From: Actinomadura alba
GTDB lineage: Bacteria > Actinomycetota > Actinomycetes > Streptosporangiales > Streptosporangiaceae
Assembly (NCBI RefSeq): GCF_014323705.1
Contig: NZ_JABVEC010000016.1
Location: forward strand, 62,001-126,000
Length of the DNA stretch: 64,000 nt
Direction: 5' to 3'
The notes beneath the pieces were generated by a model. The model did no database searches. It was given only the letters and a program-made list of their open reading frames with translations, and was not told where the DNA came from. How positions within the stretch are numbered: the first letter of the stretch is position 1; every line of letters starts with the position of its first letter. This document shows, piece by piece, positions 17,956 to 43,360 of the stretch. The position numbers and the translations under genes were made by a program.

Positions 17956-18073
17956 GATCCCATTCTGGAAATCGGCGCCACCTCCGGGCATCAGTCCAAA
18001 GTACGGTTCGCGCCGTCGGCGATCGTACTTTCGGCCGGTTCGACCGGTTCGACCGTCGGGCTCCGCTGCTGGG

Positions 18074-18190: not shown

Positions 18191-18207
18191 ACCCGCCGGG
18201 TGCCGCG

Positions 18208-20009: not shown

Positions 20010-20083
20010 GCCGGCCAGATTACCGACTCGCCGTCCGCCGGCCGGGAAGACGGCGCCCGGCACGCCCCGGTTCCGTCCCACCC

Positions 20084-20885: not shown

Positions 20886-21527
20886 TCAGCCCGGATCACG
20901 TGCGGCGACGCGCTGTTTGAGGAGGCCGACGAGCATGTGGTTGACCGACAGCATGAGGTCCTCGAAGTGGAAGTTGTTGTCGTTCTTGCCGACCTGGCCG
21001 GGGAACCTGGAGGTTCCGGGGACCACCAGGCAGACCTCGGCCAGTTCTCTGCACCTGCCGCCGTCCCCCTTGGTCATGGCGAACGTCCTGGCCCCCGCCT
21101 CGACCGCGACCTCGAGGGCCTTCGTCACATTCACCGAGTTGCCGCTTCCGGAGTAGGCCATCACCAGGTCCTTGGCGGTGACGACGGGGGCCAGGGACGC
21201 CGCGAACATGTCCTCGGCGCCGATGTCGTTGACGAGCCCGGTCAGCTCGGCGGCCGATGAGCACAGATTGACGAAGGACAGCCGTTTGACGTCCGGCGGA
21301 AGCGGCCGGGTCTTGTCCTCCGTCACGAACGGGTGATGCTTGAAATCGCAGTAGAAGTGATCGAGGGTGCCGGCGTTCCCGCCGTTGGCCATGGCGTAGA
21401 CGGTGCCGCCCCTGTCGTACGTCTCGAACAGCAACGCGGCGGCCCGTTCCAGGACGGCCACGGGGAACTCCTCGAGGATGCGGCGCTTCTCGTCGAGGTA
21501 GAGCTCGATGGTCTCGGCGAGGGTCAC
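20886..21527 (-). CDS. SIS-domain phosphosugar isomerase (GmhA-like)
   Basis: A 213-residue protein from GTG 21527, which overlaps the cupin stop (GTGA). The SIS fold shows GTVYAMANGGNAGTLDHFYC, corresponding to the G-N-G-G-S-A sugar-phosphate loop of sedoheptulose-7-phosphate isomerase, then DLVMAYSGSGNSVNVTKALE and a C-terminal HFEDLMLSVNHMLVGLL carrying the Glu/His pair. Typical GmhA length is about 190-200. In context its substrate is probably a ketose phosphate made by the split transketolase (inference). It is the last gene of the ten-gene operon. No heptose kinase, phosphatase or nucleotidyltransferase is nearby. Confidence 0.8.
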   Translation of the reverse strand: MTLAETIELYLDEKRRILEEFPVAVLERAAALLFETYDRGGTVYAMANGGNAGTLDHFYCDFKHHPFVTEDKTRPLPPDVKRLSFVNLCSSAAELTGLVNDIGAEDMFAASLAPVVTAKDLVMAYSGSGNSVNVTKALEVAVEAGARTFAMTKGDGGRCRELAEVCLVVPGTSRFPGQVGKNDNNFHFEDLMLSVNHMLVGLLKQRVAARDPG

Positions 21528-22327
21528 GACCGGCCGCCCGCGTGCTCGGAGTCGATCTGGCCGTGCCCGCGCCCGGTGTCGTCCTGCCACCGGATGACGT
21601 CGTCCAGTTCGGGGGTGGAGATCTCGATGGAGGTGTAGTCGGTTCGCGCGATCACCCGGTGGAGCTCCCCCGACGGGTTGGTCCAGCCCGAGCGAGGGCG
21701 GTGGACGGTGGTCGTCAGGCTGCCCAGGTCGATCATCGCGTTCAGGTCTTCCGGCGCGGTCGCTCCGCTCAGCACCGTGGCCTCCCCCTCGATGACGTAG
21801 TTCGTCTCCAGCTTGTACTGGTGGGATTGCAGGGACGACTGATGCCCCTCGGTCATCCGGATGCGTTTCAGTGCGTACGGGACGTCGGGAAGGCCGCGGG
21901 TGTACCAGACCTCACTGCCCCAGGGCTTGTTCACCGTGTAGTCCGAAATATCAGGACAGCTGCAGGTCACCGCCCGGAGCTCGGAGTCGGTCACCTCCGT
22001 CGTCTCTCCCAGGACGGAGCCGGCCTCGATGAGGATCGCCGGTTCGGCGTCGACGCCGGCGATCCGGTAGACGCATCCGGGAAGGGCGTGCCAGCCTTCC
22101 AGGTAGCCGAACGTCCTCGACTCGGTCTCGCCGTCGCCGCGCGGGGTCTCCAGCCGCACCCGGCCCGCGATGACCACGAAGCTCCGGTGGTCGCGGGTAT
22201 GGGACCGGAACGGGGTGGCGTGCCCGGCGTCGATCGTGTGCTCCGCGAACAGATAGGCACCGGCGGCGGCCTGATCGGCGAGCCGGCTGGTGTGTCCGTA
22301 ATCGGTGGTGACCTCGGTCGTCTTCAT
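21524..22327 (-). CDS. Bicupin protein, sugar-phosphate isomerase-like
   Basis: A 267-residue protein with two cupin barrels. The first (~20-110) has HATPFRSHTRDHRSFVVIAG and a late GWHALPG strand. The second (~130-255) begins YTVNKPWGSEVWYTRGLPDV, the K-P-W-G start of mannose-6-phosphate-isomerase-type cupins, then QSSLQSHQYKLETNYVIEGE carrying His-x-x-x-x-E ligands, and GELHRVIARTDYTSIEIST. It could isomerise or epimerise the sugar phosphate, or be a metal oxygenase. ATGA overlap with the GT20 gene and GTGA overlap with the SIS gene indicate tight coupling in sugar assembly. Confidence 0.7.
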   Translation of the reverse strand: MKTTEVTTDYGHTSRLADQAAAGAYLFAEHTIDAGHATPFRSHTRDHRSFVVIAGRVRLETPRGDGETESRTFGYLEGWHALPGCVYRIAGVDAEPAILIEAGSVLGETTEVTDSELRAVTCSCPDISDYTVNKPWGSEVWYTRGLPDVPYALKRIRMTEGHQSSLQSHQYKLETNYVIEGEATVLSGATAPEDLNAMIDLGSLTTTVHRPRSGWTNPSGELHRVIARTDYTSIEISTPELDDVIRWQDDTGRGHGQIDSEHAGGRS

Positions 22328-23769
22328 TGCTCCGCTCCTGTCATTCGATCCAGCCAGCTGGTCGCGTCCTGCTCGCGCAGCAGCCGTCGGGCCGCCGCCC
22401 GCCCCGCCGGGTCCGCACCGGAGGTCATCGCTTCGAACATGACCGAGGCGGTGGCCTCGACGTCGAACGGGTGCACCGGCGTCACGTGGTCGGCCAGTTG
22501 CTCGTAGGCGCCCGCGTTGACCGAGAGCAGCAGCCGGGCGCGCTCCCCGAGGTACAGGGCCTCCTTGGCGACCAGGTTCATCCCGTCGAACGTCGGATTC
22601 ACCAGCGCCAGGTCGGCTCCCGCCAGGGCGGCCACCACGCAGTTACGCGTGGTCGCCAGGTCCGGAAAGATCATCGAGACGGCCGGCCGGCCGGGGACGC
22701 CGAACCGTTCGTTGATGTCGGCCACCATGTCCGCGCACTCGCGCTGGAGTTCGCGGGTGCGCTCGGTCGGGCGGCCGGGCGGCGTGGCCACCGCGCAGAA
22801 CCACCACTCTCCGGCCAGCCCGGGTTCGCGCTCCAGCACGCTCCGGTACGCGGCGAAGCCGCGCGGCAGGTTCTTCCACAGATCGATGCGGTCGGCGCGG
22901 GCGATCACCCGACGGCCGTGGGCGTCCCGCTCCAGCCGCGCCCGCCACTCCGCGGTGGCCGGCTCGCCGCGCAGCCGCTCCACCATCGCGACGTCCAGCG
23001 GGAACGGGGCGACGGTGACCCGAGTCCGGTGCCCGTCGTACGTCACGCTCCGGTCGTCGACCACGCAGCCGGGCAGGAAGCGCGCGCAGCAGCCCAGGAA
23101 CGCGCGCGCCCACCGGGTGCAGTGGAAGCCGATCACGTCGGCGCACAGCAGGCTGGTGAGGATCCGATCGCGGATGTACGCGGGGAGGACGCCGAAGTAG
23201 TCGGGTTCGCACCACGGCAGCCCCTGGAAGAACGCGACCCGGCCACGGCGTTCCGACCGCCGCCCGAGCATCTCCGGTACCAGGAACAGGTGGTGGTCGT
23301 TGACCAGGATGAACTCGTCCGCCGACCCCGTCATCAGCGTCGCCACCCGGTCGGCGTACGCCCGGTTGACCGCCTCGTAGGCCGGCCACGCCTCCGCGAG
23401 CCGTCCGTCCGGCTGCCGTGCGGTGTCGAGCAGGTAGTGGAACAGCCAGAGCAGCAGCCGTACGCCGATCGTCTCGTAATGCCGGTCGACCATCGCCTGC
23501 GGCAGGCGCAGCCGGTGTAGCGTCACGCCGCCGGGTAGCGGGGTCACCTCGACGGAGCCGTCGCCGGACGGGGCGATCGGTGGGTCGGCGGTCGGTGGTT
23601 CGGCAGTGTTGTCGATGGGCATCGTGCACACCCAGTCGCCCCCGTGCCGCCCGAGCAACGTGGCCAGCAGCGGCACCAGGCCGCCGGGCGAGCGGGGCAG
23701 CAGACCGGCACCGTCCTGCCACCGTGGTGCGCTGTTGCTGCAAACGATGAGTCTCAATCCGGTCGCCAT
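22324..23769 (-). CDS. GT20 family glycosyltransferase (trehalose-6-phosphate synthase/VldE-like)
   Basis: A 481-residue protein from ATG 23769. GT20 landmarks are present: PGGLVPLLATLL, LLLWLFHYLLD, VNDHHLFLVPEM, ADRIDLWKNL and the nucleotide-sugar motif DGMNLVAKEALYL. Compared with E. coli OtsA, the acceptor-phosphate Arg of S-N-R is Ser (SNSAP) and the His of F-L-H-I-P-F-P is Gly (FFQGLPW). The donor-site Arg/Lys and Asp/Glu remain. This suggests transfer of a sugar (probably glucose) to an acceptor other than glucose 6-phosphate, as with the validamycin pseudo-glycosyltransferase VldE. It is followed by ATGA coupling to the bicupin. No trehalose-phosphatase gene is present. Confidence 0.82.
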   Translation of the reverse strand: MATGLRLIVCSNSAPRWQDGAGLLPRSPGGLVPLLATLLGRHGGDWVCTMPIDNTAEPPTADPPIAPSGDGSVEVTPLPGGVTLHRLRLPQAMVDRHYETIGVRLLLWLFHYLLDTARQPDGRLAEAWPAYEAVNRAYADRVATLMTGSADEFILVNDHHLFLVPEMLGRRSERRGRVAFFQGLPWCEPDYFGVLPAYIRDRILTSLLCADVIGFHCTRWARAFLGCCARFLPGCVVDDRSVTYDGHRTRVTVAPFPLDVAMVERLRGEPATAEWRARLERDAHGRRVIARADRIDLWKNLPRGFAAYRSVLEREPGLAGEWWFCAVATPPGRPTERTRELQRECADMVADINERFGVPGRPAVSMIFPDLATTRNCVVAALAGADLALVNPTFDGMNLVAKEALYLGERARLLLSVNAGAYEQLADHVTPVHPFDVEATASVMFEAMTSGADPAGRAAARRLLREQDATSWLDRMTGAEQ

Positions 23770-23798: not shown

Positions 23799-24728
23799 TC
23801 ACCTCACGGCGTCCTGGAGGTGGGCGGCGATGCGGGCGGCGATCCCCGCCGCGTCCAGCCGATATCGGCGGTAGAGGTCCTCGGGTGGGCCGGCCTGCCC
23901 GTAGTCCGGTACGGCCAGCACGTCGAAGCGGGGCCGGCCGGGGAGGCTCAGCACGATACGGCCCACCTCGTCGGCGAGGCCGCCGACGAGGTAGTGGTCC
24001 TCGACGACGACCGCCTGCCGGTGCGTCCCGACCAGCCGCGCGACCGTCGCCCGGTCCACCGGCAGCGACGACACGTTGACCACGGTGGGCGTGACCCCGT
24101 CCGCGGCGAGCCGGTCGGCCGCCTCGACCGCGACCGGCACCGTACCGCCCATCGCGAAGACGACCACGTCGGCGCCCTCGCGGACCACGTGCGGGATCCC
24201 GAACCGGAACCGGTATCCGTCCGCGTGCACCTCCGGCTGCGACTGCCGGCACAACCGCAGGTAACTCGGGCGCCGGTCGGTCGCCAGGTGGGTCATCATC
24301 TGCCAGGTCTCGGTGCCGTCGGCGGGCTGGAACACCCGGACGTTCGGCAGGGTGCGCATCAGCGCCAGGTCCCGCAGCCCCATCTGGGTCGGCCCGTCCC
24401 GTCCGATCGCCAGTCCGGCGTGGGTGCCGACCAGGACCACGCCCGCGTCGTTGAGCCCGACCGTCTGGAAGATCTCCAGGAACTTGCCGGTCAGGAAGTG
24501 GCCGAAGCTCGCGACGAACGGCCGGAACCCCTCCTGCGCCAGCCCGGCGGCCACGCCGATGGCGTTGGCCTCCGCGATGCCGCACTCGAAGAACCGGTCC
24601 GGGAACTTCTCCTTGAACTGCAGCGTCCGCGTCGCCTTGGCGAGGTCGCAGTTCACCACCACCACGTGGTCGTACTCGCGGGCGATCTCGACCAGCGCGG
24701 TGCCGAACCAGTCCCGGGTCGAGGTCAC
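23799..24728 (-). CDS. Transketolase, C-terminal subunit (split type)
   Basis: About 309 residues from GTG 24728 (STRDWFGTALVEIAREYDHV). A GTG some 20 codons upstream is possible. It contains the pyrimidine-binding domain (FFECGIAEANAIGVAAGLAQ, carrying the catalytic Glu that protonates ThDP), GTHAGLAIGRDGPTQMGLRD, and a transketolase C-domain (VVVEDHYLVGGLADEVGRI). It pairs with the N-terminal subunit gene directly upstream. Split transketolases in biosynthetic clusters move two-carbon ketol units, either to make a longer ketose or to add a two-carbon branch. No 1-deoxyxylulose synthase features are seen. Confidence 0.88.
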   Translation of the reverse strand: MTSTRDWFGTALVEIAREYDHVVVVNCDLAKATRTLQFKEKFPDRFFECGIAEANAIGVAAGLAQEGFRPFVASFGHFLTGKFLEIFQTVGLNDAGVVLVGTHAGLAIGRDGPTQMGLRDLALMRTLPNVRVFQPADGTETWQMMTHLATDRRPSYLRLCRQSQPEVHADGYRFRFGIPHVVREGADVVVFAMGGTVPVAVEAADRLAADGVTPTVVNVSSLPVDRATVARLVGTHRQAVVVEDHYLVGGLADEVGRIVLSLPGRPRFDVLAVPDYGQAGPPEDLYRRYRLDAAGIAARIAAHLQDAVR

Positions 24729-24798
24729 CAGTGCACCATCTTTCTGTGCTTGTCGTCGGGATCCGGCGGGAGCCGGGGTGACGGTCGCCACGGGGGTG

Positions 24799-25653
24799 TC
24801 ATGCGCCGCCCTCCAGGAGTGTCTCCAGGAAGTCGACAGCGGCCGCGTACTCCGCCGCCGACGGGAGGTCGCTGTGGCTGCCGTCCAGCAGGACCCGTCC
24901 GGGACCGAGCCGGCCCTTGCGCGTGTGGGCGATGATCGCCGATGGCCGGTCGGGCTCGCGTCGCCGCAGGGCGTCGCGCAACTCTCCGTGGTCGTGGCCG
25001 TCCACCTCATCGACGTGCCAGCCGAACGCGCGCAGTTTGTCCGCCAGCGGGCGCAGCGGCAGGATGTCGTCGACCGCGCCGTCACTCTGGCTGCCGTTGT
25101 GGTCGATGATGGCCACCAGGCCGGACACCCGGTGCGCACCGGCGTACAGGAACGCCTCCCACACCTGCCCCTCCTGGCATTCGCCGTCGCCGAGCAGGCA
25201 GTACGCGGTGGAGTCCCGGCCGTGGAGCCGCCGGGCCAGGGCCCGGCCCACGGCAACCGACAGGCCCTGACCGAGCGCACCGGTGCTGACGTCCACCAGC
25301 CCGAGCCGCGTACGGTCCGGGTGCCCCTGCAACCGGCTGTCCAGCGCTCGCAGCGTGCCGATCTCCTCGGCGGGCAGGTCGCCGTCGACGATCAGGGCGG
25401 CGTACCAGGCCGGAGCCGCGTGGCCTTTGGACAGGACGAACACGTCGCCGGCGGACCGGTCCGCGCTCCAGTCCATCTGGTCGAACTTCAGCACGCTGAT
25501 GATGTCCGTACACGACAGCGACGAGCCGGCGTGCCCGGATCCCCCGCGGTGGATCATCTCCAGCAGGACGAGCCGGCATCGGGTCGCGAGCCGCGCGATC
25601 CGGGCCACGTCGGCGCGCTCGGCCGGGCCGGCGACCACTCCCTCACCCCGCAT
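24799..25653 (-). CDS. Transketolase, N-terminal subunit (split type)
   Basis: 284 residues. The ThDP-binding half is complete: IHRGGSGHAGSSLSCTDIIS, LSKGHAAPAWYAALIVDG, GALGQGLSVAVGRALARRL and the cofactor motif LLGDGECQEGQVWEA with IIDHNGSQ. The start overlaps the PKS stop by 11 bp. A GTG five codons in, preceded by GGTGAGGGA, is an alternative. Together with the downstream subunit it makes an active heteromeric transketolase that presumably supplies the sugar substrate of the SIS, cupin and GT20 enzymes. Confidence 0.9.
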   Translation of the reverse strand: MRGEGVVAGPAERADVARIARLATRCRLVLLEMIHRGGSGHAGSSLSCTDIISVLKFDQMDWSADRSAGDVFVLSKGHAAPAWYAALIVDGDLPAEEIGTLRALDSRLQGHPDRTRLGLVDVSTGALGQGLSVAVGRALARRLHGRDSTAYCLLGDGECQEGQVWEAFLYAGAHRVSGLVAIIDHNGSQSDGAVDDILPLRPLADKLRAFGWHVDEVDGHDHGELRDALRRREPDRPSAIIAHTRKGRLGPGRVLLDGSHSDLPSAAEYAAAVDFLETLLEGGA

Positions 25654-28600
25654 CGACGCTCCCGTTCCCGTTGCCGTTGCCGTTCCCGTTCCCGTTCCCG
25701 TTCGCGTTCGCGTTCGCGTTCCCGTTCGAGGCGGACACCAGCCCGGCGATGTAGTCGGAGACCGCGGCGATGGTCGGCTGCCGCCACAGCAGGGTCGTGG
25801 GCAGCGAGCACCGGAACCGTTTCTCCAGCCGCCGCCGGACGACCACCGTCAGCACCGAGTCCAGCCCCTGCTCGACCAGCGGGCGGTGCGGCGACAGATC
25901 GGTGGGGTCCAGCCGCATCTCCCCGGCGATCTGCACGCCGACCTCCTCGATCAGGAATGCGCGCAACTCCTCCGGTCCCAGGTCGGCGAACGAGTCGGCG
26001 GGCCGTACGCCTTCGGCGCCGTTCTCCCCGGTGGTCGGCACATCGATCACCGGGTACCGCAGTCCCGACAGCCAGCCGACGACGGCGCCGGCGCTGTCGG
26101 TCACCCGTACCTGCACCGTGTCGGTGCGCTCGTGGTCGAGCCACACCTCGATGTCCACGACGCCCGGTGGCTCTCCCACCGTGACCAGCCGATCGACGTG
26201 CGTGACCATGCGCAGCAGCGGGTCGCCGGGGAACGCGCTCGGCGCCACCGACATCACCGCGTCCAGAACCGGCGCCCACGTGCCGGCCGGTCCGCACCGG
26301 ACCCGGGCGCGCAGCGCGCCGTGGCCGCGCAGCAGTTCCTCGACCGTCCAGTCGAACCCGGTGCCGGGTACGCCGACGGCGGCCAGCCGCTGCGTGACCG
26401 TGCCCGGCTCCGCCGGAGTGAGCGGCTGCGCCGGCGGGGTCGGCGCCTCTCCCGGTGTGCCGGGCACCGTGGCCGTGGCGATCATCTGCCAGGCGGCGTC
26501 CGGCTCGCCCGCGACGCGGGCGGCCAGCCGCAGCCCGGTCTCCTGCCGTACGACCTGAACCTCGCGGCGATCGGCGGTCAGCAACGGCGCCGACATCGTC
26601 ACCTCGCCGAGCACCTGAGCGCCGGAGGCGGCGAAGAAGGTCGCCGCCAGCACCGCGGCCGGCACGATCTCCACGCCCTCGATGGCGTGGCTGCCGGGAT
26701 AGGGCCGGGTCTGGTCGTCCAGGCCGGTCCGCCAGAGCCGGACATCGGTCCCCGCGAGGTCGATGCCGTCACCGAGCAGCGTGTGCGTGTCCGGGTCGTG
26801 GCCGCGACCGCCGGTGTCCGGGGCCGAGGGTGCGCGCCAGTGCCTGCGGCGCTGCCAGGGGTACGTGGGGAGCGCGACCGGCCCACCGGCCGGCTGCAGC
26901 CGGTGCCAGTCCACGTCGAGGCCGGCGCAGTGCGCCGCGGCCACGCCGGCCAGCAGAGTGGCCCGCCCGGGCCGGTTCCGGCGCAGCGACGCACCGACGA
27001 AGACGTCCTCGTGCCCGCCCGCGTTCAGCGTCTCCAGCACCGAGTGGGTGACCACCGGGTGCGGGGCGATCTCGACGAACGCGCGGTATCCGTCGGCCGC
27101 CGCCGACGCGACCGCGTCGGCCAGGCGTACCGGCCGGCGCAGGTTCGTCGCCCAGTACGCGCCGTCGAAGCCGGGCATCGCCCGTGGATCGTCCAGCGCC
27201 GTCGAGTAGACCCGGATGCCGGGGGCACCGGCCGTCAGGTCGGCCGCGGCGGCGGTCAACTCGGCCAGCAGCGGATCCATCTGCGGCCCGTGGAACGCCA
27301 CGTCCGAGGCGACGCGACGGGCCGGGATCCCCTGCTCGAGCCAGCCGGCCAGCACCTCGGCCACGGCGCCGGTGTCGCCGGAGACGACCGTCGAGCCGGG
27401 CGACGACGCGATCGCGGCGACCACGTCGGTACGCTCCGCCAGCAGCCGCGTCGCCTCGTCGAACGGCAGCTGCACCATGGCCATCGCACCGCGACCGGCG
27501 ACCCTCCGCAGCAGCCGGGACCGCCGGCAGATCAACCGGGCGCCGTCCAGGCGGCTCAGTGCCCCGGCCGTCACGGCGGCGGCGATCTCGCCGACCGAAT
27601 GGCCGATCACCGCGTGCGGGCGCAGCCCGTACTCGCGCCACAGTTCGACCAGGCCGAGCTGCATCGCGAAGATCATGGTCTGGATCCGGTCCACCTCGGT
27701 CAGCTCACCCTCGGTGAGCGCCTCCCGCGGCGAGAAGCCGATCTCGGCGGCGAACACCGGCTCCAGCTCGTCGATGACGGCGGCGAACGCCGGCTCGGTC
27801 GCCAGCAGCTCCCGGCCCATGCCGGCCCACTGCGAGCCGTGTCCGGAGAACACGAACACCGGGCCGGGACCGGGATCGACGAGCACCCGCCCGGTGGTCA
27901 CCGCGTCGTTCGGTGTGCCGGCCGCCAGGGCGCGCAGACCGTCGGCCAGCGCGGCCGGGTCCGCCGCCACCACCGCCCGGTGCGGCAGGTGGGCGCGGCG
28001 CAGCGCGAGCGTGTGCCCGACGTCCGCCGCCGGCAGGCGTCCGACGGCGTCGCCGAGGTTGCCGGCGGCCTGCCGCAACGCCGCCCGCGACGCGGCGGAC
28101 ACCGGATACAGCCGGCCCGCGGTCCCCTCGGCGGGCTGCGGTGCCGGCGGCGCCTGTTCGAGGACGACGTGGGCGACGGTGCCGCCGTAGCCGAAGGCGG
28201 AGACCGCGGCCCGGCGCGGGTGCGCTCCGTCATCGCCCCGGTCATCGCCCCGGTCATCGCTCCGGTCATCGCCCCGGCCTGGCCACGGCGTCGGCGCGTC
28301 GACCACGCGCAGTCCGGCGCCCTCCCAGTCGACGGCCGGAGTGGGCGTGTCGAGCCGGCTCGGCGGCAGCTCACCGCGATCGAGCGCCAGTACGGCCTTG
28401 ACCAGGCCGGCAACGCCGGCGGCGCCTTCGAGGTGGCCGATGTTGGACTTGGCCGAGCCGATCAGGCACGGCCGCTCCGCCGGCCTGCCCGCCCCGTACA
28501 CCGCGCCCAGCGCGGCGGCTTCGAGGGGGTCGCCGACCGCGGTGCCGGTGCCGTGCGCCTCGACGTAGTCGACCGTGCCCGGCTCGACGCCCGCCTGCCG

Positions 28601-29488
28601 CAGCGCGCGGCGCATGACGTGCTCCTGCGCCTGGCCGCACGGCGCCATGATGCCCACGGTGCGGCCGTCCTGGTTGACCGCACTGCCGCGGATGGTCGCG
28701 AGGACCCGGTCCCCGTCCCGTACGGCGTCGGCGAGCCGCTTGAGCACCACGACCGCGGCGCCCTCTCCCCGCCCGTACCCGTCGGCGGCGGCGTCGAACG
28801 ACTTGCTCCGCCCGTCCGGCGCCAGCGTGCCCGCGGCGTCCAGGGTCAGCGTCTCGCCGGGGGACAGGATGAGGTTGACCCCGCCGGCCAGCGCCACGTC
28901 GGTCTCCCCGGCCCGCAGGGCCTGCCCGGCCAGGTGGACGGCGACCAGCGACGCCGAGCACGCCGTGTCCACCGCCAGGCTCGGGCCGCGCAGGTCGAGC
29001 GCGTACGACACGCGGTTGGCCACCGCGCAAGTGGCGGCGCCGATCCCGGTCCACGCCTCGATGTCGGGCAGGTCCTCCAGCAGCCGGTGCCCATAGTCGC
29101 CGGTGCAGACGCCCACGTACACGCCCGCGTCCGTGCCGGCCAGCGCGTCCGGCGACACCCCGGCGTGCTCCAGCGCCTCCCACGCGGTCTCCATCACGAG
29201 CCGCTGCTGCGGGTCCATCAGCTCCGCTTCGCGCGGCGAGAGCCCGAAGAACTCCGCGTCGAAGTCGGCCACCCCGGCCAGGAAGCCGCCGCGGGCGACG
29301 GTGCGGCGGACCGCCGCCGCGTACGACGGGCCGCGGTCGGCGTAGTCCCGCCAGCGGTCGGCCGGCTCCGGTCCGCTGGCGTCCCGTCCCTCGCGCAGCA
29401 GGTTCCAGTACTCGTCCGCCGAATCGGCGCCACCGGGCAGGCGGCAGCCGATCCCGATCACCGCGATCGCCTCGGCCGGTCGGTCCAT
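25643..29488 (-). CDS. Iterative type I polyketide synthase, orsellinate-synthase type (KS-AT-DH-ACP)
   Basis: A 1281-residue single-module PKS. The start at 29488 (TGATG overlap with the preceding gene) opens MDRPAEAIAVIGIGCRLPGG. KS: active Cys in DTACSASLVA (~177), EAHGTGTAVGD, NIGHLEGAAG. AT: FVFSGHGSQWAGMG, Ser in GHSVGEIAAA (~629), VAFHGPQMD (malonyl-type pattern). DH/product-template-like: HAIEGVEIVPAAV (~933, H-x3-G-x4-P). ACP: Ser in GLDSVL (~1208). There is no KR and no terminal thioesterase. Length and order match AviM/CalO5-type bacterial orsellinate synthases, whereas 6-methylsalicylate synthases carry a KR. After the ACP comes an unusual Asn-Gly/Asn-Ala repeat tail. The product is presumably offloaded by the KAS III-like partners. 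Confidence 0.93.
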   Translation of the reverse strand: MDRPAEAIAVIGIGCRLPGGADSADEYWNLLREGRDASGPEPADRWRDYADRGPSYAAAVRRTVARGGFLAGVADFDAEFFGLSPREAELMDPQQRLVMETAWEALEHAGVSPDALAGTDAGVYVGVCTGDYGHRLLEDLPDIEAWTGIGAATCAVANRVSYALDLRGPSLAVDTACSASLVAVHLAGQALRAGETDVALAGGVNLILSPGETLTLDAAGTLAPDGRSKSFDAAADGYGRGEGAAVVVLKRLADAVRDGDRVLATIRGSAVNQDGRTVGIMAPCGQAQEHVMRRALRQAGVEPGTVDYVEAHGTGTAVGDPLEAAALGAVYGAGRPAERPCLIGSAKSNIGHLEGAAGVAGLVKAVLALDRGELPPSRLDTPTPAVDWEGAGLRVVDAPTPWPGRGDDRSDDRGDDRGDDGAHPRRAAVSAFGYGGTVAHVVLEQAPPAPQPAEGTAGRLYPVSAASRAALRQAAGNLGDAVGRLPAADVGHTLALRRAHLPHRAVVAADPAALADGLRALAAGTPNDAVTTGRVLVDPGPGPVFVFSGHGSQWAGMGRELLATEPAFAAVIDELEPVFAAEIGFSPREALTEGELTEVDRIQTMIFAMQLGLVELWREYGLRPHAVIGHSVGEIAAAVTAGALSRLDGARLICRRSRLLRRVAGRGAMAMVQLPFDEATRLLAERTDVVAAIASSPGSTVVSGDTGAVAEVLAGWLEQGIPARRVASDVAFHGPQMDPLLAELTAAAADLTAGAPGIRVYSTALDDPRAMPGFDGAYWATNLRRPVRLADAVASAAADGYRAFVEIAPHPVVTHSVLETLNAGGHEDVFVGASLRRNRPGRATLLAGVAAAHCAGLDVDWHRLQPAGGPVALPTYPWQRRRHWRAPSAPDTGGRGHDPDTHTLLGDGIDLAGTDVRLWRTGLDDQTRPYPGSHAIEGVEIVPAAVLAATFFAASGAQVLGEVTMSAPLLTADRREVQVVRQETGLRLAARVAGEPDAAWQMIATATVPGTPGEAPTPPAQPLTPAEPGTVTQRLAAVGVPGTGFDWTVEELLRGHGALRARVRCGPAGTWAPVLDAVMSVAPSAFPGDPLLRMVTHVDRLVTVGEPPGVVDIEVWLDHERTDTVQVRVTDSAGAVVGWLSGLRYPVIDVPTTGENGAEGVRPADSFADLGPEELRAFLIEEVGVQIAGEMRLDPTDLSPHRPLVEQGLDSVLTVVVRRRLEKRFRCSLPTTLLWRQPTIAAVSDYIAGLVSASNGNANANANGNGNGNGNGNGNGSVDAG
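25660..25731. repeat. Hexanucleotide tandem repeat encoding an Asn-Gly/Asn-Ala tail
   Basis: On the plus strand about a dozen units of cgttcc, cgttgc and cgttcg follow one another in blocks. On the PKS-coding strand they give alternating Asn-Ala then Asn-Gly dipeptides behind the ACP, ending SVDAG. Such a microsatellite is prone to slippage, so its length may vary between strains. Confidence 0.85.
28228..28277. repeat. 12-bp tandem repeat in the KS-AT linker
   Basis: Four near-identical copies of ggtcatcgcccc (one with a T change) encode a Gly-Asp-Asp-Arg-type charged repeat between KS and AT domains of the PKS. It is in frame and probably a flexible linker. Confidence 0.8.
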
Positions 29489-30549
29489 CACGCATCGCCT
29501 CCATACGTCCGCGACCACACGGGCGACTCGAGAATCTCCACGACGGCGGCCGAGATGGTCACGCCGGGCCCATAGGCGAACATCAGCAGGTGGTCGCCGG
29601 GTCCCAGGCCGCCACTGCGGACCAGATGCTCCAGCGCGACGATCTGGTCACTGGCACCGCAGTGGCCGATGGTCCGGCCGAACTCCCAGGTCGACCGGGA
29701 CGACGGGATGCCCAGCCGGTGCTCGCAGATCTGGTCGGCGATCTCCTGGGAGGTGTTCATGCACGCCACCCGGGTCACGTCGCCCGCCTTGATCCCGGCC
29801 TCCGACAGGGCCCGGTCGATCACCTCGGCCATCCGCTCGTCCAGCGTCACCAGCACCCCGGTCCCGTCGCCCTCGACGACCGCGCGCCGCCGGAACGCGT
29901 CGTTGTGCGCGGCGAAGTCCACCGTGCGCCCCTCGGTGACGCCGGGCGGGAACAGCGGCTCGGCGCAGCGGTGCATCTCCTCGGCCTGCGACACCGAGAC
30001 CGAGCACACCGACGCCAGCCGGGCGAACCCCGGCTCGGTATCGAGCACGACGGCGCTGCTCGCGTCACCGGCGACGGCCCCGGGCAGCATCCGCCACCGG
30101 TCGACCAGCGGAGTGCCGTAGTTGTCGGCGGCGACCAGCAGCGCCGCCTGGCGGCCGGGCCCGGCCCGCAGGTAGCCCGCGGCCAGCTCCAGGGCGGTGA
30201 ACATGCCGTTGCAGCCCTGTTTGAGCTGAGCGGACAGAACGCCGTCGCCGACCAGATGCCGTTGCACGTACGCCTGCGGCGGCCAGCCCTCCGGGCCCTG
30301 ATGCCAGGTCGAGGTGTACAGCAGCAGATCCAGATCGGTGGGAGACCGCCCGCTGCGGGCCACCGCGCTCCGTGCCGCGCGCAACGCCATCTCCGGTGCC
30401 GGGACGTCACCGGCCACCGCGACCGAGGCGAGCCGATGAAGCTCGACCTCCTCGGCCGGGTACCAGCCCGCCGCCACGGCGTGGTCCACGCCCACCGTGC
30501 CGGGCAGGTACGCCCCGACCCCGCTGATGTACATGTCCGCCGTCTCCAT
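29488..30549 (-). CDS. KAS III-like acyltransferase, first copy (catalytic His replaced)
   Basis: A 353-residue thiolase-fold protein of the CerJ/ChlB3/AviN class that transfers acyl groups from carrier proteins to sugars or other carriers. The active Cys113 is in QLKQGCNGMFTALELA, and an Asp301 stands in GHCGASDQ where FabH has Asn. The His position, His262 in the neighbouring copy (AFQHGRW), is Asn265 here (ACMNTSQ). It is co-transcribed and overlaps the PKS start by one base, as expected for the partner that unloads the aromatic acyl chain. Either the family tolerates Asn or this copy has an altered or scaffolding role. Confidence 0.85.
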   Translation of the reverse strand: METADMYISGVGAYLPGTVGVDHAVAAGWYPAEEVELHRLASVAVAGDVPAPEMALRAARSAVARSGRSPTDLDLLLYTSTWHQGPEGWPPQAYVQRHLVGDGVLSAQLKQGCNGMFTALELAAGYLRAGPGRQAALLVAADNYGTPLVDRWRMLPGAVAGDASSAVVLDTEPGFARLASVCSVSVSQAEEMHRCAEPLFPPGVTEGRTVDFAAHNDAFRRRAVVEGDGTGVLVTLDERMAEVIDRALSEAGIKAGDVTRVACMNTSQEIADQICEHRLGIPSSRSTWEFGRTIGHCGASDQIVALEHLVRSGGLGPGDHLLMFAYGPGVTISAAVVEILESPVWSRTYGGDA

Positions 30550-30590: not shown

Positions 30591-31625
30591 TCACTGGTAC
30601 TCCCGCGGAATGTCGAGGATCCGCAGTACGGTGCAGGCCATTGCGGTGCCGGCGCCGAGCCCGACGAGCAGCACGTTGTCGCCGGGGGCCAGCGCCCCGT
30701 CGGCCAGCAGGTGTTCGAGGGCGACGAACTGGTCGCTGACCCCGAGGTGCCCGATGCGGGCGCCGTACTCCCAGGTGGTGTCGGCCAGGGTCAACCCGAG
30801 CCAGTTGAGCCCGCGGTGCTCCAGGTCGTCCCAGCGCCCGTGCTGGAAGGCCACGCGCGCCACCTCGTCGAGCGTGATCTCCGCCTCCTTGAGCGTGCGG
30901 TCGACCAGCTCCATCAGCGTCGTCTGGATCGCCAGCATGACGGCGGCGCCGTCACCGGCGAGCAGCCGCTTGCGGAACTCACGGTTGCGCGCGGCGAAGT
31001 CCAGCGGCCGGCCCACGGTCGCGTCCGGCGGGAACATCGGCACGCCGCCGTCGTTGACCGCCTCGGCCTCCGGCAGCACGATCACGTTGACCGACCGCAC
31101 CTCGGCGAACCCGGTGTCCGTGGTGATCAGCAGCGCGCACCCGGCGTCGCCCATCACGGTGCCCTCGATCATCCGCCACCGGTCGACCAGCGGGGTGCCG
31201 TGGTTGTCGGCGCCGACCAGCAGCGCGGTGCCGCCCGGCCGCAGGTACCCGGCGGCGAGCTGCAGCGCGCTGAACATCCCGCAGCATCCGTGCCGCAGTT
31301 CGACGGCCAGGACGTCGCCGCCGACCAGGTGCTGCTGCAGGTAGTACTGCGGCTCCCAGCCCTCCGGCCCCTGGTGCCAGACGTCGGAGTACAGCATGAG
31401 GTCGAGGTCGCGCGGTGACAGTCCGCCGGAGCGTTCGAACGCGTGCCGGGCGGCGCGCAGGGCCAGCTCCGGGGCCGGCACGTCGCCGGCCACCGCCGCA
31501 CCGCCGAGGCGGAAGTACTCCACCTCGTCGGCCGGATAGCGGCCCTCGGCGACGGCCGTCTCGATGCTGACCACCGGTGGCAGATGGACGCCGATACTGC
31601 GCAGGTACAAGTCGGATGTACGCAT
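30591..31625 (-). CDS. KAS III-like acyltransferase, second copy
   Basis: 344 residues, clearly paralogous to the downstream copy (shared PEGW, GTPLVDRWRM and AAGYLR motifs). The Cys-His-Asp triad of CerJ-type acyltransferases is complete: Cys114 (LRHGCCGMF), His262 (AFQHGRW) and Asp298 (GHLGVSDQ). In chlorothricin, polyketomycin, avilamycin and calicheamicin clusters such proteins accompany aromatic iterative PKSs and relay or load the aryl group. Two copies here suggest two acylations or a relay (inference). It lies 41 bp before the next gene. Confidence 0.87.
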   Translation of the reverse strand: MRTSDLYLRSIGVHLPPVVSIETAVAEGRYPADEVEYFRLGGAAVAGDVPAPELALRAARHAFERSGGLSPRDLDLMLYSDVWHQGPEGWEPQYYLQQHLVGGDVLAVELRHGCCGMFSALQLAAGYLRPGGTALLVGADNHGTPLVDRWRMIEGTVMGDAGCALLITTDTGFAEVRSVNVIVLPEAEAVNDGGVPMFPPDATVGRPLDFAARNREFRKRLLAGDGAAVMLAIQTTLMELVDRTLKEAEITLDEVARVAFQHGRWDDLEHRGLNWLGLTLADTTWEYGARIGHLGVSDQFVALEHLLADGALAPGDNVLLVGLGAGTAMACTVLRILDIPREYQ

Positions 31626-31688: not shown

Positions 31689-32561
31689 TCACCGGGTGTC
31701 GGACATCGCAGCGGGGTCCGCCGACCCGTCGCGGAGCAGCAGCATCGGATCGTTCAGCTCGTACAACCCGCACATCGGCGGGCAGGCCTCGTAGCCGAGG
31801 AGCCGCTGGATGTCCTCGGGGTAGCCGCGGACCACGTCCAGCGGTACGGACAGGTACTGGTTCTCCTCCTGGCGGAGGTTGCCGAGGTCGTAGGCATACG
31901 ACAGGCCGGTGCGGGGCGCGTCCGAGGCGTTGACGCCGGCCCCGTGGTACGTGCTGCCGAGCCACAGCAGCGCGGAACCGGCCCGCATCTCGGCGGGCAC
32001 CGCCTCGTCGTCGCGGGGCGCCCGCTCGTCGCCCCACCGATGGCTTCCCGGAATCACGCGGGTGGCACCGGTGCGCGCGGTGAACTCGCTAGCGGCGATC
32101 ATGACCTGAACCCGGCTCTCCGGGCCCGGGTGGGTACGGAGGTGGGCCGTGTCGTCCCGGTGCAGACTCTGGATCGGCACACCGGGCCAGGTCTGGATGG
32201 CCCGCGATATGCCGAGCTGGATCGTCGGCACGAGCTCCACGCGATGCTCGCCGAGCCAGGCCTTCACCGGCCGCTGCAGGAAGTGCCGCGCTGTGCCGAG
32301 GAGGTGCGGCTGCCGCATGATCGTGACCGAACGCGCGGTCCGGCGTACCAGTCCTGGGAGGATCCGGGTCTTCTCGCCGACCAGCCGCCCGTCGCCGTCC
32401 GGCTGGCGTTCCAGGGCCGGCCCCAGGTCGTCCCACAGACCGCGGAGCGTTTCGGCGTCGACGAAGTCCTCGATGATCACTGCTCCGTCACGGTCGACCA
32501 CGTCTATCGCCTCGTCGACCGCGGCCGACGCGGACAGGGTGGTCAGCTTGGGATCAGTCAT
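31689..32561 (-). CDS. Phytanoyl-CoA dioxygenase-family (Fe(II)/2-oxoglutarate) oxygenase
   Basis: A 290-residue protein with the double-stranded beta-helix fold. DGAVIIEDFVDAETLRGLWD is typical of PhyH N-termini. The iron site is SLHRDDTAHL (His-x-Asp) plus STYHGAGVNAS (second His), and the oxoglutarate Arg is in APRTGLSYAYDLG. GSHRWGDE matches the PhyH P-G-S-H loop. In clusters the family hydroxylates, halogenates or closes rings; in orthosomycins related enzymes (AviO1/EvdO1) make orthoester or methylenedioxy bridges. The role here is unknown, but its place next to sugar and aryl genes is notable. The second gene of the operon. Confidence 0.87.
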   Translation of the reverse strand: MTDPKLTTLSASAAVDEAIDVVDRDGAVIIEDFVDAETLRGLWDDLGPALERQPDGDGRLVGEKTRILPGLVRRTARSVTIMRQPHLLGTARHFLQRPVKAWLGEHRVELVPTIQLGISRAIQTWPGVPIQSLHRDDTAHLRTHPGPESRVQVMIAASEFTARTGATRVIPGSHRWGDERAPRDDEAVPAEMRAGSALLWLGSTYHGAGVNASDAPRTGLSYAYDLGNLRQEENQYLSVPLDVVRGYPEDIQRLLGYEACPPMCGLYELNDPMLLLRDGSADPAAMSDTR

Positions 32562-32615: not shown

Positions 32616-34145
32616 TCAGGTCGCCCGGGCGGGCGGGCCGAACCATCGGGTGAGGACGCTCGGCAGCGACGCCGGGTCGGCGGGCGTGCTCCATGCGACG
32701 AAGCCGTCCGGCCGGATCAGCAGGGCGTCCGCCGGGGCCTCGGCGCATTCGGCGGTGACCACGTCGACCCGGTCGGACCAGGGCTCGGCGAGCGCACGCA
32801 ACCCGGGATCGGCGCCGAGGTCGAGCAGCAGTGGCCGCCCGGTGCGTTGCAGTTCCGCGACCCGTACGGTGCCGTCGGAGCGTTCGAGCCGCAGGTCCGG
32901 GCTGTAGCGCCCGGCCAGCGGGCCGGTCAGCGACGGGTCGCCCATGTCGTAGCTGATGTGCAGGTCGTCGACCAGGGCGGTGAGCTGCCGGTTCGCCTCA
33001 TCGCGGAGCAGCAGTTCCTTGAGCAGCCGGCGCAACGCGTCGACGTGCGGGCCGGGTCGCATCAACGCGATCGAGGCGCGCTGGATCTCCAGCGTCTGCG
33101 CGCCGATCGGATGCCGCTCCGAGGTGTACGTGTCGAGCAGATCCTCCTGGCACCAGCCTCGCGCGACCGCGGCGAGCTTCCAGCCGACGTTGACGGCGTC
33201 GCCCAGCCCGAGCCGCAGGCCTGGACCGCTCCAATGCGAGTGGACGTGGGCCGCGTCGCCGACTAGTAGTACCCGCCCGCTGCGGTACGTCTCGGCCTGC
33301 CGTGCGTTGTCGGTGAACCGGGTGATCTTCTTGACCTCGGTGACCGTCACCTTGGTGCCGCTGAGCCGGCGCAGCGCCCCCTGGAACTCCTCGAGCGTGA
33401 TGGGCGCGTCCCGACTCACCGGTGGGTCGCCGAATTCCAGCGTGATGAACCGGGGTGGTCCCTCCTCGTACACCAGGAGCCCGCCGTCCTTGCGGAACCA
33501 GCCGGGCAGGTGGAAGTCGGGGTCGTCGATCTCGGCGAAGGCGCGGTACCCGGTCGTGATGCCGTCCGTTCCCGGAAAGGCGATGCCGGACAGCTTCCGG
33601 ACCATGCTCCGGCCGCCGTCGCAGCCGACGAGCCATTCCGCCTCGATCCGGTACGGCCCGTCCGGTCCCTCGACGTCGAGGCCCACCCGGTCGTCGTCCT
33701 GGGTGAAGCCGGTGACCGTGTGGCCGCGCCGCACCTCGACACCGAGTTCCGTCGCGCGCCGCGCCAGGTCCTCCTCCAGCAGTTGCTGGGGCACCAGCAG
33801 GTCGGGCGACTCCGGGCGGAGGAGGAACATGCTGGCGAAATGCCGCGCGCCGGGGAACGCCTTGGGCAGCAGGCTGTCCGGCCGTCGCTCACCTGCGGCG
33901 ATGCGTGCCCGCTGCTCGGCGGTCGGTGGCGTGGTGGGGGTCTCGGTCACCCCGATCATGAGACCGCGACGGTCCATGATGTCGACGGCCCGCCCGGTGA
34001 TGCCCTCGGCCTTCGGGCGCCATTCGATCTCGGGCAGTCGTTCGAGCACCACCACCGGAACGTCGTGTAGTGCCACCTCGCAGGCGAGCATGAGCCCAAC
34101 CGGTCCACCACCGACAACCGCGACCTGAGCATCCCGAAACGCCAT
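32616..34145 (-). CDS. FAD-dependent aromatic hydroxylase (class A flavoprotein monooxygenase)
   Basis: 509 residues from ATG 34145, preceded by AGAGG. It has a Rossmann GxGxxG (VAVVGGGPVGLMLACEVALH), a DG motif (WLVGCDGGRSMVRK) and a GD motif (LLVGDAAHVHSHWSGPGLRL, then GDAVNVGWKLAAVARGW). The C-terminal thioredoxin-like domain ends LLIRPDGFVAW, as in phenol and polyketide hydroxylases (MhpA/RdmE type). It probably hydroxylates the aromatic ring made by the PKS. It is the first gene of the leftward operon; the 262-bp spacer upstream carries the promoter region. Confidence 0.9.
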   Translation of the reverse strand: MAFRDAQVAVVGGGPVGLMLACEVALHDVPVVVLERLPEIEWRPKAEGITGRAVDIMDRRGLMIGVTETPTTPPTAEQRARIAAGERRPDSLLPKAFPGARHFASMFLLRPESPDLLVPQQLLEEDLARRATELGVEVRRGHTVTGFTQDDDRVGLDVEGPDGPYRIEAEWLVGCDGGRSMVRKLSGIAFPGTDGITTGYRAFAEIDDPDFHLPGWFRKDGGLLVYEEGPPRFITLEFGDPPVSRDAPITLEEFQGALRRLSGTKVTVTEVKKITRFTDNARQAETYRSGRVLLVGDAAHVHSHWSGPGLRLGLGDAVNVGWKLAAVARGWCQEDLLDTYTSERHPIGAQTLEIQRASIALMRPGPHVDALRRLLKELLLRDEANRQLTALVDDLHISYDMGDPSLTGPLAGRYSPDLRLERSDGTVRVAELQRTGRPLLLDLGADPGLRALAEPWSDRVDVVTAECAEAPADALLIRPDGFVAWSTPADPASLPSVLTRWFGPPARAT

Positions 34146-34407
34146 TAACACCTCTTCTGGGGATAGCAATGAGCCTTGCTGGAAGAGTCGTCGGGTTACC
34201 ACTCACAAGACCGGCCACATTTACGGCGGTCTTGCACCCTGCGCGTTGACACATGTGTCCGTTCGGTCAGCGCCGATGCTAATCGGATGGCCCAAAAATG
34301 ACTAGTGGTGTCATTTTTCGGATTCGTCATGCATAATCTTCAGCGCTGATGATCACCGGCGTGCCGGGACGGCGCGGCCGCCCGGTGCCCAGGCGGGAGG
34401 TTGCCGG
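34146..34407. promoter_or_regulatory. Divergent control region of the biosynthetic cluster
   Basis: The spacer between the leftward ten-gene operon and the rightward P450-AKR pair. It has a perfect 12-bp palindrome GACACATGTGTC (34248-34259) overlapping a TTGACA hexamer (34246-34251). It also has an inverted repeat AAAAATGAC-n7-GTCATTTTT (34294-34318) in AT-rich context. Both are operator candidates. The cluster has no regulator gene of its own in the window, so the binding protein must be encoded elsewhere. Confidence 0.55.
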
Positions 34408-35637
34408 ATGAGCGATGGTCGGATGGCCCAGCCGTTGGAGACCGACCGACCCACCCCCTTCGACCCGCCCGTCGAGCTGCGGAAGCGAGCCCCGCTGAGC
34501 CGGCTGGCCTATCCCGACGGGCACGTCGGCTGGGTGGCCACCGGGTACTCCGTCACCCGGGCCATCCTGGCCGATCCGCGCTTCAGTACCCGGCGCGAGC
34601 TGCTTCACCAGCCGGTCGGCCGGGAACGCGCGCATGAGCGGCCGACACCCGCGGAGCCGGGCATCTTCCCGCACATGGATCCGCCCGAGCACACCCGGTA
34701 CCGCCGCCTGCTGAGCCGCCACTTCGGCCCTCGGCGCGTCGCGGAGCTGACGCCCGCGATCCGGCGGTACACCGCACAGGCGCTCGACGGTATGGCGGAC
34801 GGCGGGCCGCCCGTCGACCTCGTCGCGTCGTTCGCGATGCCGATCCCGGCCATGGTGATCTGCGAGCTGCTGGGCGTACCGGCCGAGGACCGGCACCTGA
34901 TCCAGGCGGCGACCGCGGTGATGAACAACCTGGATTCCACGCCGGAACAGGCGATCGACGCCGTGATGTCGATCACCGGGACGGTGCGCGGCCTCATCAC
35001 GCGCCTGCGCGCCGCATCCACCCCATCGGACGACGGGCTACTGGCGCACGCCGTGGCGACCGACGACCTGACCGACGACGAACTCACCAACCTCGGGATG
35101 GTGCTGCTGGCCACCGGCCACCTGCCCACGTCGAGCATGCTCGCGCTCGGGACGTTCGTGCTGCTGACCGAACCGGCCCAGCGAGCCCGCCTGGCCGCGG
35201 ACCCGGAACTCGCCGAGCGGGCGGTCGAGGAGCTGCTGCGATACCTGTCGATCCTCCAGTTCGACGTACGACGCACCGCGCTGGTCGATGTGGAGATCGA
35301 CGGCCAGGTCATCGCGGCCGGTGAGACCGTGGTGCTGGCGCTGCCGGTGGCGAACCGGGATCATGTGCACTTCGCCGACCCGGACACGCTGGACCTGGCC
35401 CGCTCCCCGGCCGGGCACCTGGCCTTCGGGCACGGCATCCACCAGTGCCTCGGGCAGCATCTCGCGCGCGCCGAGCTTCGTATCGCGCTGACCGCGCTCT
35501 TCGAGCGCTTCCCCGACCTGCGCCTGGCGGTTCCGGCGGCCGAGGTGCCGACCCGCGAACGCATGGCGGTGTACGGAGTGGACCGGCTACCGGTCGCCTG
35601 GGGTGCTGTTCTGGCGGACCGTCCGAGCGCCGGATAG
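34408..35637 (+). CDS. Cytochrome P450 with non-canonical I-helix
   Basis: A 409-residue CYP. FPHMDPPEHTRYRRLLSRHF (helix C), the ExxR motif in EELLRYL, and the haem loop LAFGHGIHQCLGQHLARAEL with the axial Cys are all present. The I-helix reads LATGHLPTSSMLALG, where most bacterial P450s have A-G-H-E-T-T. The acid is Leu and the usual Thr is Pro. Dioxygen activation must then differ, as in some P450s that use substrate-assisted proton delivery or catalyse coupling. It is head-to-head with the FAD hydroxylase and 9 bp before the AKR gene. Confidence 0.9.
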   Translation: MSDGRMAQPLETDRPTPFDPPVELRKRAPLSRLAYPDGHVGWVATGYSVTRAILADPRFSTRRELLHQPVGRERAHERPTPAEPGIFPHMDPPEHTRYRRLLSRHFGPRRVAELTPAIRRYTAQALDGMADGGPPVDLVASFAMPIPAMVICELLGVPAEDRHLIQAATAVMNNLDSTPEQAIDAVMSITGTVRGLITRLRAASTPSDDGLLAHAVATDDLTDDELTNLGMVLLATGHLPTSSMLALGTFVLLTEPAQRARLAADPELAERAVEELLRYLSILQFDVRRTALVDVEIDGQVIAAGETVVLALPVANRDHVHFADPDTLDLARSPAGHLAFGHGIHQCLGQHLARAELRIALTALFERFPDLRLAVPAAEVPTRERMAVYGVDRLPVAWGAVLADRPSAG

Positions 35638-35646: not shown

Positions 35647-36600
35647 ATGCGTTATAGGAGCTTGGGCGATTCAGGCCTCCGGGTGTCGGTGGTCGGGCTG
35701 GGCTGCAACAACATCGGTGCGCGTCTCGACGTGACCCGTACCAGGGCGGTGGTGGACGCGGCGATCGAGGAGGGTGTCACGCTGTTCGACACCGCCGAGT
35801 CGTACGGCGCGACCCCGGGTGCCTCCGAGGAGCAGCTCGGCGAGGTGCTGGCCGGCCGGCGGGACAAGGTGGTGCTGGCCACCAAGTTCGGCAGCCCCGA
35901 CAACCGCCCCGACTACGGGCAGGGCGAGGCGCGCGGAGCGCTGGGCGGCCGGTCGTACATCCGACGGGCGGTGGAGGGTTCGCTGCGCCGCCTGCGTACC
36001 GACTACATCGACCTGTTCCAGTACCACTTTCCGGACGGCGTCACTCCGATCGAGGAGACGCTGGAGGCCCTGACCGAGCTGGTGCGTGAGGGCAAGGTGC
36101 GCTACATCGGCAGCTCGAACTTCACCGGCTGGCAGATCGCCGAGGCCGCGCATGTGGCCCGCGCGGGCGGATGCGCGTCGTTCGTGTCGACGCAGAACCA
36201 CTGGTCGTTGTTGGACCGGGGCGCCGAGCGCGACGTGGTTCCGGCGGCCGTGCATTACGGGGTCGGCGTGCTGCCGTACTTCCCGCTGGCCCACGGGCTG
36301 CTGACGGGAAAGGTGCGACGCGGGCAGGAGCCGCCGGCCGGGAGCCGGCTCGCGGAGCGTCCTTTCCTCGTCACGCCGGAGAAGCTGGACCGGGTGGAGG
36401 TCCTGACGTCCTGGGCCGAGAAGCACGACCGGTCCGTCCTGGACGTGGCCATCGGCGCGCTGGCCGCTCTGCCCGGCTGCGGTTCGGTGATCGCCGGTGC
36501 GACCGGCCCGGAGCAGATCCGGGCCAACGCGGCCGCCGGCGATTGGGAACCGACCGCCGAGGAACTGGCCGAGATCACCGCGTTGGTGCCGCTCACCTGA
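35647..36600 (+). CDS. Aldo/keto reductase
   Basis: A 317-residue AKR (TIM barrel) with the full catalytic tetrad: Asp and Tyr in LFDTAESYGAT, Lys in LATKFGSPD, His in FQYHFPDGV. The NADPH-binding end (GATGPEQIRANAAAG) is intact. It is likely co-transcribed with the upstream P450 (9-bp gap). It probably reduces a sugar or aromatic carbonyl in the pathway. A general detoxification role cannot be excluded. Confidence 0.9.
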   Translation: MRYRSLGDSGLRVSVVGLGCNNIGARLDVTRTRAVVDAAIEEGVTLFDTAESYGATPGASEEQLGEVLAGRRDKVVLATKFGSPDNRPDYGQGEARGALGGRSYIRRAVEGSLRRLRTDYIDLFQYHFPDGVTPIEETLEALTELVREGKVRYIGSSNFTGWQIAEAAHVARAGGCASFVSTQNHWSLLDRGAERDVVPAAVHYGVGVLPYFPLAHGLLTGKVRRGQEPPAGSRLAERPFLVTPEKLDRVEVLTSWAEKHDRSVLDVAIGALAALPGCGSVIAGATGPEQIRANAAAGDWEPTAEELAEITALVPLT

Positions 36601-43323: not shown

Positions 43324-43360
43324 TAACGAGATCCCAGACACTCAGGAATGATGCACCGAA

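Follow-up and report, generated by a model that had tools for sequence, protein, structure and literature searches.

A GT20 glycosyltransferase subfamily with three replaced active-site residues, and its place in a polyketide operon of Actinomadura alba

Glycosyltransferases of family GT20 are usually read as enzymes of trehalose synthesis. According to the available part of PMC3441724, one of them, VldE, belongs instead to an antibiotic pathway; VldE and ValL are pseudoglycosyltransferases of validamycin biosynthesis. For a second system, the available parts of PMC4784017 and PMC5321127 name the ThiG homologue BexX of Amycolatopsis orientalis as the enzyme that makes the 2-thioglucose unit of BE-7585A. 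Here we consider a GT20 gene of Actinomadura alba that lies in a stretch of 64,000 nucleotides (contig NZ_JABVEC010000016.1, positions 62,001 to 126,000), called the window below. Within a ten-gene minus-strand operon it takes the eighth place; the operon runs from 34202 down to 20886 and encodes, in this order, a flavin adenine dinucleotide (FAD) monooxygenase, a PhyH-family oxygenase, two KASIII-like proteins, a polyketide synthase (PKS), the N- and C-terminal halves of a split transketolase (TK-N and TK-C), the GT20 protein, a cupin and a SIS-domain protein (Table 1). An earlier sequence-only reading of this DNA had proposed that the GT20 enzyme was diverted to specialised metabolism, and this proposal holds: the gene is tightly packed into one operon with the PKS gene, with gaps of at most 63 bp and overlaps at four of the nine junctions. 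The branch of GT20 to which it belongs is small, has drawn little notice and is represented in several kinds of biosynthetic gene cluster; throughout this subfamily a fixed Ser/Thr9-Leu85-Gly154 signature marks the cluster enzymes.

The open reading frame scores 249.7 bits against the Pfam GT20 model (PF00982, cut-off 32.5), which places it in the family; the donor-side family motifs R-x4-K and D-G-x-N-L...E are present and the GT-B fold is matched. Against the NCBIfam OtsA equivalog TIGR02400 it reaches 194.7 bits, below the cut-off of 564.85. A fold model built from 16 sequences (predicted local distance difference test, pLDDT, 83.8; predicted template modelling score, pTM, 0.85) matches the OtsA and VldE structures with Z of 36-39 and a root mean square deviation of 2.6-3.0 over about 424-444 residues. 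The structural comparison suggested beforehand therefore reveals a common fold, but the difference in Z between OtsA and VldE is small and uninformative on function. By sequence, the solved protein nearest to the window GT20 is the guanosine diphosphate-glucose-dependent OtsA of Streptomyces venezuelae (5LQD; 183 bits, with 32% identity in the structural match), which differs in being an ordinary trehalose synthase with the His present, in H-T-P-W. Two other GT20 genes of the Actinomadura alba genome carry the ordinary residues at all positions that the alignment spans (it leaves out the N-terminus of the copy on C46), so the window GT20 is not needed for trehalose synthesis and is free for another task. 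Its start may be the first ATG (23769) or an in-frame GTG (23802) that overlaps the stop of the preceding TK-C gene: in two Actinoallomurus orthologues, which lack an ATG where 23769 lies, translation must begin further upstream.

With mature E. coli K-12 OtsA as the reference for residue numbers, Arg9 (S-N-R) aligns with Ser13 of the window protein and His154 (F-L-H-I-P-F-P) with Gly183, while R-x4-K (R294/K299 in the numbering of the window protein), D-G-M-N-L and E403 (same numbering) are retained. The sequence-only reading had pointed out both replacements and the kept donor motifs, and was correct according to this alignment and to all 20 members of the subfamily described below. It overlooked a third replacement, by Leu107, of Trp85, which we take to line the acceptor site in OtsA. 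Position 9 is Ser in 18 members and Thr in two, compared with Arg in all 20 ordinary GT20s that cover it; position 85 is Leu in 20/20 members and Trp in 21/21 ordinary GT20s, and position 154 is Gly and His, respectively, in the same numbers. The ordinary set comprises the 18 best-scoring ordinary loci from the search of 149 relatives, the genome's two other GT20s and E. coli OtsA (one sequence is truncated at position 9), and with this choice by score and origin it is not a random GT20 sample. The equivalents of Tyr76, Asp130, Arg262, Lys267, Asp361 and Glu369 are retained in the window protein and common to all 20 members. The three-residue change is thus neither a matter of chance nor private to the window gene. 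As to the location of the changes, the sequence-only reading had placed both of its replacements at the acceptor site, which stands for Arg9 only. For mycobacterial OtsA, the available part of PMC6879718 gives Arg18, Tyr90, Asp144, Gln146 and Arg324 as acceptor contacts and His168 as the sole contact of the N-domain to the donor; the available part of PMC3441724 assigns VldE His182 to the donor cyclitol and equates VldE Arg12 with OtsA Arg9. By analogy with these published contacts, Arg to Ser is an acceptor-side and His to Gly a donor-side change, and since the His contacts the donor sugar in both OtsA and VldE, both sides of the pocket are altered. Arg16 (S-N-S-A-P-R-W) was considered as a stand-in for Arg9 and rejected, as four members of group C (see below) have Gln there.

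GT20 relatives were sought in 149 relatives, in 341 genomes of the family and in public species genomes. Not counting the own genome, eight of the 341 family genomes hold a relative with an E-value of 1e-75 or lower (51-88% identity), and relatives occur in 6 of 80 Amycolatopsis genomes, starting genome included. The subfamily count of 20 combines family, named-locus and Amycolatopsis sequences; further matches are the same genomes again. Two sequences were left out of it, L061 (Ser9, Gln85, Gly154) and L062 (Trp85 and His154, N-terminus uncovered); the latter (10001-11260) sits at the base of the subfamily and is a possible intermediate. In the maximum-likelihood tree the subfamily forms one side of a branch and splits into three groups, each with 100/99 support; groups A and B are sisters, and their joint sister is group C with its 14 ThiG-linked sequences, so that A and B fall outside the latter. 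A simple script based on GC by codon position supplied the gene calls; because it misplaced some starts and put a few genes on the wrong strand, the presence of each gene was counted anew by tblastn. Group A consists of the window gene and those of Actinoallomurus spadix KCTC 9252, Actinoallomurus soli WRP6H-15 and Actinoallomurus iriomotensis NBRC 103681, in which the operon is found as well: TK-N, TK-C, cupin, SIS, PKS, both KASIII-like proteins and PhyH are present in 4/4 loci (at L049 the TK-N, TK-C and PhyH matches come from L036, the same contig stretch). In group B, that is Actinomadura sp. DC4 (L053) and genome G152 (L040/L041), both loci encode a non-ribosomal peptide synthetase (NRPS), a His-phosphatase and a conserved protein to which no Pfam family matches. 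The group B GT20 gene directly follows the NRPS genes, one of which encodes a fused C-PCP-TE-MFS protein, and precedes those of the Pfam-less protein (248 aa) and the phosphatase. ThiG-like and MFS proteins accompany all 14 group C genes, and a ThiS-like protein three of them. For SIS, cupin and split transketolase, the sequence read around the 16 GT20 genes of groups B and C gave no match (E 1e-8). A GatZ/KbaZ-like neighbour of the L061 GT20 was tried as a fourth context and rejected (20.5 bits, cut-off 26.7). The three groups follow gene context, and this actinobacterial subfamily appears to have left ordinary trehalose synthesis and to be inherited with differing partner genes. One might still suppose a catalytically poor GT20 kept for structure or regulation, considering that three otherwise conserved pocket residues are lost; with nucleotide-binding and Asp residues invariant in 20/20 members, and three coherent groups with tight partner genes, we regard this as highly improbable.

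The sequence-only reading had pointed to VldE for comparison. VldE orthologues were sought in Streptomyces through the D-G-Q-N-L loop; the pattern occurs in 40/392 genomes, three of the 30 loci listed fall within GT20 genes, and the two of these compared with PDB match VldE at 700 and 840 bits. The orthologues retain Arg9, Trp85 and His154 (the third is truncated at Arg9), and all three are separated from the subfamily, here 21 sequences with L061 but not L062 included, by a branch with 100/100 support. Judged by sequence, the window subfamily is not VldE-like and VldE is not the nearest relative of the window protein; what the subfamily has in common with VldE/ValL is the GT20 fold and a role in specialised metabolism. 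Since the two lie on different branches, GT20 probably entered specialised metabolism at least twice; the VldE branch is long, and we are unsure of its exact place in the tree. An aminotransferase in the cluster is reported for all ValL homologues in the available part of PMC12041759. Among the ten operon genes there is neither an aminotransferase nor a cyclitol-synthase-like gene; a class III aminotransferase is encoded at 42028-43323, at a distance of 7.8 kb past the FAD gene. Despite the shared fold (Z 36-38 to VldE/ValL entries) and the antibiotic precedent, it is therefore very unlikely that the window enzyme is a VldE-type pseudoglycosyltransferase joining cyclitols, given its different residues, loop and well-supported branch.

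VldE-type enzymes had been named as the only well-known diverted GT20s, which overlooks group C (14 loci), whose proteins are 47-53% identical to the window GT20. A compact ThiG-like/MFS/GT20 cassette recurs in Streptomyces, Nonomuraea, Microtetraspora and Amycolatopsis (L051, L052, L054-L060, L070-L079), in some cases adjoining NRPS genes. By analogy, group C looks like the 2-thiosugar (2-thiotrehalose) cassette of BE-7585A, whose cluster PMC5859366 lists as MIBiG BGC0000203, and such cassettes are probable unexplored 2-thiotrehalose-type clusters. In two of five further Amycolatopsis genomes (G428 and G445) the cassette is about 24 kb from a ketosynthase pair (Pfam was run on that of G428), as expected of a BE-7585A-like angucycline cluster; P450 and FAD enzymes lie in between, in G428 also a DegT-family gene, and the stretches read of the other three had no ketosynthase match. 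In that system BexG2 reportedly (Sasaki is said to have described it in 2010) couples uridine diphosphate (UDP)-glucose to 2-thioglucose 6-phosphate, acting as a 2-thiotrehalose 6-phosphate synthase; BexG2 did not occur among the open-licence literature matches listed. The likeness to the window lies in GT20-type coupling within a polyketide cluster, together with the ThiG/BexX-like neighbour of the group C relatives. The window operon differs in having transketolase, SIS, cupin and a type I orsellinate-type PKS instead, and a ThiG-like protein had no match in the window (tblastn, E 1e-8). If the analogy holds, an enzyme with Gly154 and Ser9 can work with glucose as donor and a phosphorylated acceptor, so that the changes are no proof of a new donor. 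This bears on the idea that loss of the His permits a donor sugar without the ordinary C6 hydroxyl, such as a 6-deoxy sugar or a pentose, in place of glucose. The invariant Gly, at a position described as a donor contact in the same parts of PMC6879718 and PMC3441724, speaks for it. We nevertheless find a changed donor improbable: the donor-holding D-G-[ML]-N-L loop is retained, no gene modifying nucleoside diphosphate (NDP)-sugars was found in the group A operon, and group C, if it is the group of BexG2, would use UDP-glucose with the same Gly.

What, then, might the window enzyme make? The function that we propose, and to which we give about an even chance, is that of the 1,1-glucosyltransferase of an uncharacterised operon, joining NDP-glucose to a modified sugar phosphate to form a non-reducing disaccharide that an aromatic acid would subsequently acylate. 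The altered residues, the subfamily, its distance from VldE and the conservation of the operon are shown here; the nature of donor, acceptor and product and the sequence of steps are what we infer. The kept nucleotide-binding residues would hold an NDP-hexose, most likely NDP-glucose, for retaining (internal-return) transfer onto the anomeric hydroxyl of an aldose phosphate. Tyr76, Asp130 and probably Arg300 would still grip the acceptor, and loss of Arg9 and Trp85 would open the pocket for another shape. In the window operon a modified sugar phosphate is the likeliest candidate for this acceptor. The sequence-only reading had suggested the adjacent SIS and cupin enzymes as its source; with SIS, cupin and split transketolase found in all four group A loci and absent from the group B and C stretches, it is reasonable to consider these three as its makers. 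The transketolase, with motifs intact in both halves, would shift a two-carbon unit. The SIS protein resembles a solved phosphoheptose isomerase at E 2e-13, though at 60.9 bits it is far below the GmhA cut-off of 209.45, and would turn a ketose phosphate into an aldose phosphate; such a route, as read from these sequences, may feed the GT20 enzyme. The cupin might then adjust or epimerise the aldose phosphate. At full length it was encountered solely with this operon: among 394 genomes of the class, relatives occurred in two besides the own genome (E 1e-12) and matched the second half only. These shorter relatives (L087 and L088) belong to two genomes of another family; their neighbourhoods had no SIS, TK-C or GT20 match and one 26-residue TK-N match at chance level, and a frame adjoining L087 appears, by eye, GatZ/KbaZ-like.

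The aromatic part of the proposal rests on the PKS and the acyltransferases. The PKS has an H-x3-G-x4-P motif in its DH/TH region and no match to a ketoreductase domain, and KS-AT-DH/TH-ACP without ketoreductase is how bacterial orsellinic acid synthases are laid out. ChlB3, the KASIII-like acyltransferase of chlorothricin biosynthesis, is matched by the first KASIII-like protein over its whole length. ChlB3-type proteins move aryl groups made by orsellinic-acid-type synthases; as a difference from the ChlB3 system, no discrete acyl carrier protein gene is seen in the closely spaced window operon. By analogy, the natural reading is that the operon product includes an aryl ester of a sugar. The disaccharide would be dephosphorylated and esterified with an orsellinate-type acid from the PKS, carried by the two ChlB3-like acyltransferases, and the FAD, PhyH and P450 enzymes would tailor the product last. 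A run of Asn-Gly/Asn-Ala repeats (window 25643-25720) comes just after the ACP and closes the PKS.

Several points weigh against this proposal, one being that no phosphatase turned up in the group A operon. The role given to the cupin is a guess, since its fold prediction had no usable result (an AlphaFold model from four close sequences, at pLDDT 28.8, went unused) and no PDB relative appeared at E 0.01. The equivalent of OtsA Arg300, Arg333, is one column off in the alignment, which makes its conservation probable, not certain; the region reads P-G-R in the window protein and P-S-R in groups B and C and most ordinary GT20s. The replacement of His154 by Gly could mean a changed donor after all, and the placement of BexG2 in group C is a tentative one, made by gene context. 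Finally, the group B stretches read have no evident acceptor-modifying enzyme, which would fit plain glucose 6-phosphate. As an alternative, the window enzyme may be a cluster-dedicated maker of ordinary trehalose 6-phosphate from glucose 6-phosphate, with the residue changes altering kinetics rather than substrates and the transketolase, SIS and cupin proteins serving another sugar. The OtsA fold, the retained Tyr76, Asp130 and probably Arg300, and the His-phosphatase of sister group B would agree with this. We consider it possible but rather unlikely, as the acceptor Arg is lost in all 20 members, two ordinary GT20s are already in the genome, and the score against the OtsA equivalog is so far below its cut-off.

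Returning to glucosyl transfer onto a modified sugar phosphate, it is tempting to go one step further, although we hold this extension to be speculative and on balance unlikely. The operon product might be a new aromatic ester class of a trehalose-like disaccharide with a heptose as the second unit: the transketolase would supply a ketose phosphate, either sedoheptulose 7-phosphate or a longer one, which the SIS protein would convert to an aldoheptose phosphate; the cupin would set its configuration, and the GT20 enzyme, with an active site rebuilt for a larger acceptor, would join glucose to it 1,1. If so, GT20 would serve repeatedly as the basis on which natural products with a non-reducing disaccharide arise, with interchangeable modules for making the acceptor (sulfur, heptose, others). 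The three-residue signature finds clusters of this kind by sequence alone and would predict such products. No title or abstract among the open-licence matches listed describes the window operon; as it is conserved in three named Actinoallomurus strains, the product can be sought directly.

Table 1. Genes of the operon and its flank in the window
Feature	Positions	Strand	Remarks
FAD-dependent aromatic-ring-type monooxygenase	32616..34202	-	first gene of the operon
PhyH-family Fe(II)/2-oxoglutarate oxygenase	31689..32561	-	
Second KASIII-like acyltransferase	30591..31625	-	about 50% identical to the other
First KASIII-like acyltransferase	29488..30549	-	closest solved relative ChlB3 (7EQI), 454 bits
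Iterative-type PKS, KS-AT-DH/TH-ACP	25643..29518	-	1291 aa; orsellinic-acid-type architecture
Transketolase N-terminal half (thiamine diphosphate binding)	24799..25653	-	GDG motif
Transketolase C-terminal half (pyrimidine-binding and C-terminal domains)	23799..24740	-	ECGIAEAN motif
GT20 glycosyltransferase	22324..23769	-	481 aa; S13 (=Arg9), L107 (=Trp85), G183 (=His154); start possibly GTG 23802
Two-part cupin protein	21524..22327	-	second half like sugar-phosphate-isomerase-type cupins (by eye)
SIS-domain protein, distant GmhA (phosphoheptose isomerase) relative	20886..21590	-	234 aa as the longest open reading frame
Cytochrome P450, divergent	34408..35637	+	homologue in 3/3 Actinoallomurus loci
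Aldo/keto reductase	35647..36600	+	in 1/3 Actinoallomurus loci (stretches read)
Second cytochrome P450	36660..37895	-	homologue in 2/3 Actinoallomurus loci (stretches read)

Two details of the gene limits may be added: the cupin ATG overlaps the GT20 stop codon, and the SIS protein probably starts about 20 codons further in than its longest frame. Directly downstream of the operon (window 16022-20465) are ABC transporter and histidine kinase/response regulator genes, which are unmatched in the Actinoallomurus stretches. On the other side, window 42028-48196 carries the class III aminotransferase gene together with glutamyl-tRNA reductase and ALAD-like genes, and the G+C content is lower there, down to 54% at 44001-46000.

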